Source of the DNA: Acidobacteriota bacterium
GTDB taxonomy: Bacteria > Acidobacteriota > Polarisedimenticolia > J045
Reading direction: 5' to 3'
NCBI GenBank assembly: GCA_030949985.1
Contig: JAUZRX010000001.1
Span: 1 to 64,000, forward strand
Length of the DNA stretch: 64,000 nucleotides
The position numbers were made by a program, and so were the translations under genes. The notes beneath the pieces were generated by a model. That model saw only the letters and a program-made list of their open reading frames with translations, was not told where the DNA came from and ran no database searches. This document shows positions 52,339 to 58,256 of the stretch, piece by piece. Within the stretch, counting starts at the first letter, position 1; each line of letters starts with the position of its first letter.

Positions 52339-52727
52339 CCACCGTGGAGCGGAGAATGTTGTTCTTTGGAGCTCTCTTGGCGGGGGGGCTGAAACCGCGG
52401 GAGCGGGCGGTGACCGCCGGAAGGTCGCGGGTCGCCGCCTAGGCGAGGGGCTCGAGGGCTCCTGGGGGGCGCGGGCCTGGAAGGGGATGGGGGCAGGTGG
52501 GGCGCGCGGCCGACCGGGACGCGGTGGAGGCCGCGCATTCGGGGAGGGTGATCCGGCGCTGCGCTTATGCTGGCCGCCGTCGGCGCGCGCGATTTCGCTG
52601 TTTGATCGCCCATATCGGGAAGTCCATTCTTCGCTCCACGGTGGGCTGGGGGGGGTCAAGCCGCGAGGGGTTGGGCCGAAGAGCGGGTGGAGGGCCGTGC
52701 GCGGCGCATGGCCGGAGGCCCCTTGCT
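52339..52727. other. Intergenic region with no recognised feature
   Basis: This 390-nt stretch between perR and the HD-GYP gene is GC-rich with long G runs. I see no ORF with natural composition, no RNA motif and no convincing promoter; the control region of the HD-GYP gene must lie here. Confidence 0.4.
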
Positions 52728-53765
52728 ATGCCGGCAGCGGCAGATACCGCCCAATACATCCTTGTGCCCATCGAGCATCTACGGGCCGAGACGGTGCTCA
52801 GTTTCGACCTGTTCATTCAGCACGAGGGGACCGAGCCTGTGCTCTACCGGGCTCGGGACATGGAGTTCACCGGGGAGGTGCGTCAGCGCCTGCTGGAGAG
52901 CGGGGTCCACGAACTGCTGGTCCCGGCCGACCAGGCGGAGGCCTACCAGCAGTACTGCGCCGAGCAGGGCCAGACCGCGCCCCAGCCGGCCAAGCCCTCC
53001 GCGCCCGAGGTCAGCGAAGAGGAACTGCGCCTCACCGAGCTGGTCCTGGACGCCGGCTTGCCCCTCGAATCCCGCTGCAGCACCCTGCTCGGCGTTTCCC
53101 GGATGGTGGTCGAAGCGGTGTTGTCGGACCTGGCGTCTCCCGGGCTCCACCAGCGGGTCCAGCGCGTCGCGGAGGCGGGGGCGCGCCTGTTGCTGGCCGA
53201 GCCGGAGGCCTACTCACGGCTGGTGTCCCGCTTCGGGATCGACTTCGAAGTAGCCGGCCACCTGGCCAATACCTCGTTCTACGTCACCGAGTTCGCCCGG
53301 GCCATCGGCACCGAAGACGTGCAGGAGCTGGCTTCCCTGGGGCGGGCGGCGCTGCTTCACGACGTGGGCAAGGGGGATACGCCCGGCGAGTTGCTCCATC
53401 GGGACAGCGGCCTGACGGACCTGGAGTGGGCCGAGGTGATGAGTCACCCGGAGCGGGGAGTGACCATGCTGCGGGAAGCCGGATGGGACGACCCGCTCTG
53501 CCTGGACGTCTGTGCCAACCACCACGAACGCTGCGATGGTTCGGGCTATCCCCGGGGTTTGCACAGAGAGCAGATTTCCCTGGCGGCCCGCATGGTGGCG
53601 ATCGCCGACACCTTCGACTCGCTGACCTCCGGTTACACCAATCGCCCGGCCTATTCGGGCTTCCAGGCCCTGTGGCGGATGAAACGGGAGATGGTGGGCA
53701 AGTTCGACGCGGATCTGCTCGATCGCTTCATCCAGGTGATGGTGGATCCCGCCCTGCGGCGCTGA
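52728..53765 (+). CDS. HD-GYP domain protein (c-di-GMP phosphodiesterase-like)
   Basis: The 345-residue protein has an N-terminal DUF3391-like part (YILVPIEHLRAETVLSFDLF), then an HD-GYP domain with LLHDVGKGDTP (H211, D212), ANHHERCDGSGYPRGLH (H265, G-Y-P) and MVAIADTFDSLTSG. The G-Y-P triplet marks c-di-GMP-specific hydrolysis. ATG 52728 is chosen because GGAGG precedes it; a longer upstream frame is Arg-rich and unlike protein. It has no output domain. Confidence 0.9.
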   Translation: MPAAADTAQYILVPIEHLRAETVLSFDLFIQHEGTEPVLYRARDMEFTGEVRQRLLESGVHELLVPADQAEAYQQYCAEQGQTAPQPAKPSAPEVSEEELRLTELVLDAGLPLESRCSTLLGVSRMVVEAVLSDLASPGLHQRVQRVAEAGARLLLAEPEAYSRLVSRFGIDFEVAGHLANTSFYVTEFARAIGTEDVQELASLGRAALLHDVGKGDTPGELLHRDSGLTDLEWAEVMSHPERGVTMLREAGWDDPLCLDVCANHHERCDGSGYPRGLHREQISLAARMVAIADTFDSLTSGYTNRPAYSGFQALWRMKREMVGKFDADLLDRFIQVMVDPALRR

Positions 53766-53849: not shown

Positions 53850-54935
53850 ATGTCGCGATGTCAACGCTTCGGGGCCCTGGTCCTGGCGGCCCTCCTGCCG
53901 GCGACGATGGTGATGGCCGAGGATGCCCCGGCGGCCGTTCCCCTCTTCGCCGTGGACTCGGAGACGATCGACCTGGGCGTGGTCCCGGAGGGTGAAGAGG
54001 TCACCGCGGAGTTCGTCGTGCAGAACAAGGGCCAGGCCGAACTGCGCATTCTCAAGGCCAAACCCAGCTGAGGCTGCTCCGTTGCCGAGTTCGACTCGGT
54101 GATCCCGCCCGGTGGGTCGGGACGCATCGTCACCAGGATCAGAACCGCGGGCATCCAGGGGCGACGGACCAAGACGGTCGAGGTGGAGACCAACGATCCC
54201 CGGCATCGCCGCCTGCGTCTTTCGGTGAGTTTTCTGGCCCAGGCGCCGGTGGAGGTCTACCCCCAGCCCTCGATCAACCTCTACGGTACGGCGGGGGCCG
54301 AGATCGAAATGAACCTGCTCTTCCACCGTCCCGACGGTCAACCGCTCGAGCTGCAGGAGATCACGCCCAGCCGCACGGGCCTCGTCGTGGAGGCCGAGAA
54401 GGTCACCGAGGTCGGCGGCGATCCCCCCGGTCAGCGGGCCCGGGCGGTGGTCGGGGACTGGCGGGTGAAGATCCGGCTGGCCGACAGCAGCGAGGCGCGC
54501 AGCGAGGTGGGCACCCTGCGCGTGGTCACCAACCACCCCGAGCGGCCGGAGATGTCGCTGCCGATTCGCATTCGGGTCACCCCGGCCATCCAGGCGCAGC
54601 CCGCGCGGCTGAACATCCGGGTTCAGGCCGGCGACCCGCCGCTGCTCCGCGGCATCACCCTGCGCAATACCCGGCGCAAACCGTTCCGCGCCACGAGCAT
54701 CGACGTCACCGGCAATCTCGCGGGGCTTTCGGCTTCCGTGACCACCGACCGCCCCCGTCCCGTGCAGCGGCTGGAGATCAGGATCGACACCAGCGCCCTG
54801 CGCCCCGGGATCTACGCCGGCCGGCTGGTGGTGCACACCAACCAGGCGACGTTGCCCCGGATCCTGGTGCCCGTGCGCATCGAGGTGGTGGCGGCGCGGG
54901 ACGGTCGGCCCCCTGCGTCTACGGGCAAGAACTGA
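53850..54935 (+). CDS. DUF1573-type secreted protein with in-frame TGA (candidate selenocysteine, residue 74)
   Basis: ATG 53850 (AAAGGAAG upstream) opens a signal peptide (GALVLAALLPATMVMAEDA) and a DUF1573/Ig-like domain: SETIDLGVVPEGEEVTAEFV, then LRILKAKPS. A TGA follows at 54069-54071, and the same frame goes straight on as GCSVAEFDSVIPPGGSGRIV to a stop at 54935. In DUF1573 proteins this site reads S-C-G-C-T-V, so the TGA replaces the first conserved Cys. With the TGA read through, the protein has 361 residues with two or three more Ig-like domains. Selenocysteine is the natural reading; a nonsense mutation or TGC-to-TGA sequencing error is the alternative. The 3' end overlaps the convergent BNR gene by 17 nt. 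Confidence 0.75.
54084..54122 (+). promoter_or_regulatory. Possible SECIS hairpins after the TGA
   Basis: Two stems follow the TGA. GCCGAGT/ACTCGGT (54084-54100) has a TCG loop 19 nt after it. TCCCG-CCC/GGG-T-CGGGA (54103-54122) has a GGT loop 39 nt after it and a bulged T. The first lies at the usual bacterial distance but lacks a G at the start of its loop. The second has the GG loop and a bulged U but lies slightly too far. Neither is a clean match. Confidence 0.3.
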
Positions 54936-57212: not shown

Positions 57213-58256
57213 ATGCACATGGAGAAGGGCGATTCCGGCGCCGCCGGCGCCTCGTTCGACTTTCGTGGCGAGTTGGCGGCACGGCGCCTGGGCCTCGAGC
57301 CGGTAAGCCTCGAGACCCTGCAGATCAACATCACCCGCCTGTGCAACCAGGCCTGCCGTCATTGCCACGTGGACGCCTCGCCACAGCGCAGGGAAATGAT
57401 GCCTCGCCGTACCTGGGAGCAGTGCCTGGCGGTGCTCGAGCGGAACCCGGAAATCCGTCACCTGGACATCACCGGCGGCGCTCCGGAACTTCATCCGGAT
57501 TTCGACGAAATCGTCCGTCGGGCCCGGGCCATGGGGCGCCACGTGATGGTGCGTCACAATCTCACCGTGACCCTCGACGGGAATCCCGTCACCGGAGAGA
57601 GCAAGGAGTACCTGCCGGGCTTCTTCGCCGAACAGCGAGTCGAGGTGGTTTCATCGCTGCCGTACTACCAGGCCTTTCTCACCGACCGGCAGCGGGGTCG
57701 GGGCGTGTTCGACAAGAGCGTGGAGTCGATGCGGCGACTCAACGCCGAGGGCTACGGCCTGCCGGAGAGCGGGCTGACGCTCAACCTGGTCTACAATCCC
57801 GCCGGCGCCTACTTGCCTCCGCCCCAGCACATCCTGGAAGCGGATTTTCGTCGGGCGTTGCGGGAGAGGCTGGGACTGGAGTTCAATCACCTGTTCACCA
57901 TGACCAACATGCCGATCCACCGCTTCCGCCGACAGCTCGAGCATCGGGGCGCCTACGAGGGGTACATGGAGAAGCTGGTCGGGAGCTTCAACGCCGCCGC
58001 CGCCGAGGGGGTGATGTGCCGTTTCATGATCAGCGTCGACCACCGGGGACGGCTCTACGATTGCGACTTCAACCAGATGCTGGCCATGGGGCTGAACCCG
58101 GGAGCCCCGGAGACCATTTTCGACTTCGACGCCGAGGCCCTGCTTGCACGCCGCATTCGTTTCGCCCCCCACTGCTTCGGCTGCACGGCAGGCGCCGGCA
58201 GCAGTTGCGGGGGCGCCACGGCGGATGAGGGCGCGAGCGGGGAACCCGCTCCATGA
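57213..58256 (+). CDS. arsS: Arsenosugar biosynthesis radical SAM protein ArsS-like
   Basis: The 347-residue protein has a radical-SAM cluster motif C44-x3-C48-x2-C51 in TRLCNQACRHCHVDASP, then LDITGGAPELHPDFDEIV. A C-terminal DUF3641-type end RIRFAPHCFGCTAGAGSSCG carries extra cysteines for an auxiliary cluster. This combination is what I know as ArsS, which adds the 5'-deoxyadenosyl group to dimethylarsenite in arsenosugar synthesis. No ArsM or other arsenic gene is nearby. A histidine kinase gene overlaps its stop by 4 nt. Confidence 0.85.
   Translation: MHMEKGDSGAAGASFDFRGELAARRLGLEPVSLETLQINITRLCNQACRHCHVDASPQRREMMPRRTWEQCLAVLERNPEIRHLDITGGAPELHPDFDEIVRRARAMGRHVMVRHNLTVTLDGNPVTGESKEYLPGFFAEQRVEVVSSLPYYQAFLTDRQRGRGVFDKSVESMRRLNAEGYGLPESGLTLNLVYNPAGAYLPPPQHILEADFRRALRERLGLEFNHLFTMTNMPIHRFRRQLEHRGAYEGYMEKLVGSFNAAAAEGVMCRFMISVDHRGRLYDCDFNQMLAMGLNPGAPETIFDFDAEALLARRIRFAPHCFGCTAGAGSSCGGATADEGASGEPAP

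Follow-up and report, generated by a model that had tools for sequence, protein, structure and literature searches.

A UGA codon that most probably encodes selenocysteine in an acidobacterial DUF1573 protein of the OS_HP2 family

Introduction

Does an in-frame TGA end this gene early, or is it translated? The question arises at positions 53850–54935 (+ strand) of the window (the whole stretch of 64,000 nucleotides that was analysed), where a frame of 361 codons is open except for one internal TGA. The sequence-only reading of this DNA had proposed a candidate new selenoprotein. The selenocysteine stands, supported by in-frame stops that are only ever TGA, by covariation of the SECIS hairpin and by the presence of selB, selC and selD, whereas the novelty does not, as the family has been described and has a profile of its own. 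We judge with a probability of about 0.95 that selenocysteine is inserted at UGA codon 74; the product would be an exported DUF1573 protein with three Ig-like domains. Taken with the exchange of TGA for Cys codons across relatives, these lines of sequence evidence strongly support selenocysteine at the first cysteine position of the protein.

The gene and its family

The internal TGA (54069–54071, +) is codon 74, and the terminal stop (54933–54935, +) is a TGA as well. When the internal TGA is read as an amino acid, PF07610 (DUF1573) gives a single unbroken match across it (residues 34–123; 68.1 bits against a gathering cut-off of 26.1). The matched region, 53949–54218 (+), is an N-terminal PapD-like Ig domain of the HYDIN and VesB type, also recognized by PF22544 (46.3 bits). 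The TGA takes the place of the first Cys of the DUF1573 C-G-C motif: a Cys paralogue in the same genome (L020) reads LPQCGCTV where the present protein reads KPSUGCSV. Thus two claims of the sequence-only reading are borne out, that homology continues through a frame open on both sides of the TGA and that the TGA falls exactly on the first Cys and leaves a U-G-C. The last residue of this motif, the putative resolving Cys76 (TGC, 54075–54077, +), is invariant in all 21 rows of our alignment. Residues 1–23 (53850–53918, +), MSRCQRFGALVLAALLPATMVMA, look by eye like a probable signal peptide, and residues 1–20 have a pLDDT of about 50 in the predicted structure.

Selenocysteine, which the sequence-only reading did not know from DUF1573 proteins, had already been described in them. 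OS_HP2, which corresponds to pfam07610 with a UxC motif, has been listed as a selenoprotein since Zhang and Gladyshev 2008 (PMC2398784), the DUF1573 domain-containing protein with UGC appears among the selenoproteins in reviews (PMC9312934, PMC13188914), and NCBIfam NF041425 is named "OS_HP2 family (seleno)protein" (OS_HP2_seleno). The gene is therefore a well-supported further member of OS_HP2 and not a new family. It shares with the literature definition the Pfam family and a TGA-encoded selenocysteine that comes first in U-x-C, here at residue 74 and followed by Gly-Cys. Two differences from the 2008 description are apparent: the acidobacterial protein has two further Ig-like domains, and the selenocysteine form, for which the GOS table held two sequences only, is here confirmed to be widespread in Acidobacteriota, in what was a poorly known selenoprotein family.

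The NF041425 profile aligns across the selenocysteine site (residues 39–127, E = 2e-26) and matches all 21 aligned proteins. With 92.1 bits over the whole protein, however, the present sequence stays below the curated cut-off of 100 and is not a called member. Since the cut-off is reached in none of the 41 genomes of the class, pipelines that rely on NF041425 probably truncate the acidobacterial selenocysteine genes, which would then be deposited as two fragments. A lower cut-off, or the addition of sequences from the class, would mend this fragmentation.

Conservation of the TGA among relatives

In the 41 genomes of the class the NF041425 profile finds 35 matches, 17 without a stop and 18 with exactly one in-frame stop, which is always TGA; the carriers include the sole congener (G020). 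A family search in 18 named genomes and in 396 genomes of the phylum again returned TGA as the only in-frame stop, and neither TAA nor TAG occurs in the DUF1573/OS_HP2 matches of these three search tables. Other stop codons in homologues, which the sequence-only reading had regarded as fatal to its claim, were thus not seen; this absence rests on the tables, which count any stop, and not on the set of 36 distinct TGA loci that we aligned, which was collected by requiring C or U at the site.

All 36 loci have U-G-C at the same place, the first Cys of C-x-C, and stand beside 124 Cys homologues. The loci are spread over many genera and families, mostly of Acidobacteriota; the one from another phylum belongs to a MAG of Krumholzibacteriia (L156), in which a Cys copy accompanies the TGA gene. 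A contig scan for the family motif used Cys codons, returned mainly Cys forms and is no gauge of how frequent selenocysteine is elsewhere. On a tree of 100 columns only, which gives rough numbers, the selenocysteine label requires 11 changes, at least 7 of them on well-supported branches; this suggests that selenocysteine and cysteine have been exchanged repeatedly within OS_HP2. In three different lineages (L042, L156 and L243) a TGA gene and a Cys gene of OS_HP2 lie side by side as duplicates. One further MAG (L112, JAHZIX010000045.1) is titled Deltaproteobacteria; its match has the same coordinates as that of an acidobacterial genome (G403), and the title is probably wrong.

These comparisons bear on what the sequence-only reading took to be the main alternative, that a TGC became TGA by sequencing error or by a recent nonsense mutation and that the gene is a pseudogene. 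A single base does separate the two codons, and many relatives have Cys here. Yet the TGA is fixed in all 36 loci, the stem behind it covaries (see below), and purifying selection persists downstream, where dN/dS against the congener is 0.21 over 281 codons. As the congener comes from a separate assembly and has the same TGA, a sequencing error is excluded; error, decay and a random stop alike are excluded by the conserved TGA-only loci, the alignment of U-G-C, the congener and the low dN/dS. We therefore give a mutated or misread cysteine codon practically no weight.

A covarying hairpin after the UGA

The sequence-only reading considered the SECIS support weak. For the single sequence this is correct, as its fold is unremarkable (z = −0.71) and uninformative, and comparison across relatives was needed for that reason; the support becomes strong once relatives are compared. 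They point to a SECIS hairpin of bacterial type at 54081–54103 (+), with 10 bp (54081–54090 with 54094–54103), an apical loop at 54091–54093 and 19 nt from the UGA to the loop. Of the 36 loci, 35 retain a hairpin 9–32 nt past the TGA, built from stems of quite different sequence; in the exception (L243) the uninterrupted stem is only 4 bp long. In the 21 loci without gaps, 94.3% of the cells of the 10-bp helix are paired. The helix contains 22 double-sided, compensatory changes, a number reached by none of 500 shuffles, and its covariation score of 0.357 was likewise reached by none of 500 (shuffled 0.154 ± 0.023), while slid registers give at most 0.127. One branch has the helix core GAG/CTC and another TCG/CGA, whereas GCG/CGC and GGG/CCC each occur in an individual sequence; the amino acids encoded there change to match (E..S, S..E, A..A and G..P). 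In more distant TGA loci the stem lies at much the same spacing but is unrelated in sequence, as with GACTTT/AAAGTC and CTTTGCT/AGCAAAG.

The hairpin belongs to the TGA genes. Their mean longest stem after the codon is 8.5 bp, against 4.4 bp in the 124 Cys homologues, and their folding z relative to synonymous recoding is −1.78, against −0.19; by these two comparisons no SECIS-type hairpin was found in the Cys homologues. Between the congeners dS is 0.08 over the 16 codons after the TGA, a short stretch that holds the hairpin, and 0.65 in the next 34.

According to the bacterial SECIS consensus (PMC13188914), a stem of 4–16 bp, a UGA-to-loop distance of 16–37 nt, a stable hairpin and a G in the loop are to be expected. 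The present element conforms in stem length, spacing and stability and differs in the loop: the first two triloop positions of the minimum-energy fold lack a G, and the G of the published rule appears only when the two top base pairs are opened to a 7-nt loop, GUUCGAC.

Decoding genes

The genome contains selB (304 bits, 328 when joined, above cut-off), selD (367 bits) and a tRNA-Sec (selC) with the anticodon UCA; absence of these genes, which the sequence-only reading would have held against selenocysteine, was thus not observed. We suggest that SelB, bound to the hairpin 9–32 nt downstream, would deliver the Sec-tRNA(UCA) to UGA codon 74.

Could the UGA instead be reassigned to Trp, or serve as a programmed stop that yields a 73-residue product? 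That UGA terminates both the DUF1573 gene and neighbouring genes rules out a general UGA = Trp code. This same use of UGA as a normal terminator makes some partial termination at codon 74 conceivable. Against both variants stand the decoding genes and a hairpin specific to the UGA genes, and against Trp also the aligned residue in homologues, which is Cys. We consider reassignment or truncation very improbable, and insertion of selenocysteine remains our reading.

The fourth gene named by the sequence-only reading, selA, was not found in the 133-contig assembly, whose completeness is estimated at 100%. An assembly gap is likely, because selA is present in 39 of the 41 class genomes, the congener included; of the 4.3 kb around the congener's selA only one 45-bp stretch has a counterpart in the 133-contig assembly. 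SelA would then be encoded in a gap of the draft. Since the assembly combines a conserved UGA gene with selB, selC and selD but lacks selA, and since a second carrier of an OS_HP2 TGA (G018) likewise lacks it, one might also think of a Sec-tRNA made without SelA by another PLP enzyme. We regard this as a far-fetched explanation and prefer the gap.

The selD reading frame (L009 1414–3851, G000:C49) is extended at its N terminus by about 85 residues that look DUF3343-like by eye. Directly next to it lies a gene resembling class-V aminotransferases, which may encode a selenocysteine lyase (SclA-like); SclA-like lyases in selD operons have been reported (PMC13188914).

Structure and possible function

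Modelled with Cys in place of selenocysteine, the protein is predicted to be all-beta with three Ig-like domains (mean pLDDT 90.4), and the U-G-C site lies in a loop of the first of these, between strands 65–72 and 77–81. Structural similarity links this domain to PapD-like/HYDIN domains (2e6j at rmsd 1.9 over 99, Z 11.1) and also to VesC (6bqm at rmsd 2.4 over 98, Z 11.8). Comparison with Foldseek and VIA-align yielded generic Ig/PapD-like and ciliary HYDIN-type domains only and no functional hint, and in a sequence search of the PDB even the top hit, 2qsv, fell short of significance (E = 0.065).

When members of a family use either selenocysteine or cysteine at one site, this usually marks a redox centre. 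The most likely function, at roughly even odds, is a redox role in the cell envelope: exported through its signal peptide, the protein could form a reversible selenenylsulfide between Sec74 and Cys76 and act as an envelope redox factor in thiol/disulfide exchange. The main rival on function, which leaves selenocysteine insertion untouched, takes Sec74 and Cys76 as a metal-binding or structural pair. C-x-C pairs are able to bind metals, and structure comparison found no catalytic domain match in the tandem Ig/PapD-like scaffold; the Sec/Cys interchange argues the other way. We hold such a pair to be possible, if rather less than probable.

Neighbouring genes

Immediately upstream of the UGA gene lies an HD-domain (HD-GYP-like) gene (52497–53765, +). 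Of 17 loci of relatives, 8 keep it close to the UGA gene; it is the sole widely shared neighbour and has no redox link. At 57213–58256 (+), 2.3 kb downstream of the UGA gene, the window encodes the Cys form of ArsS, the arsenosugar biosynthesis radical SAM (seleno)protein (TIGR04167, 410 bits), which is another family known to use selenocysteine.
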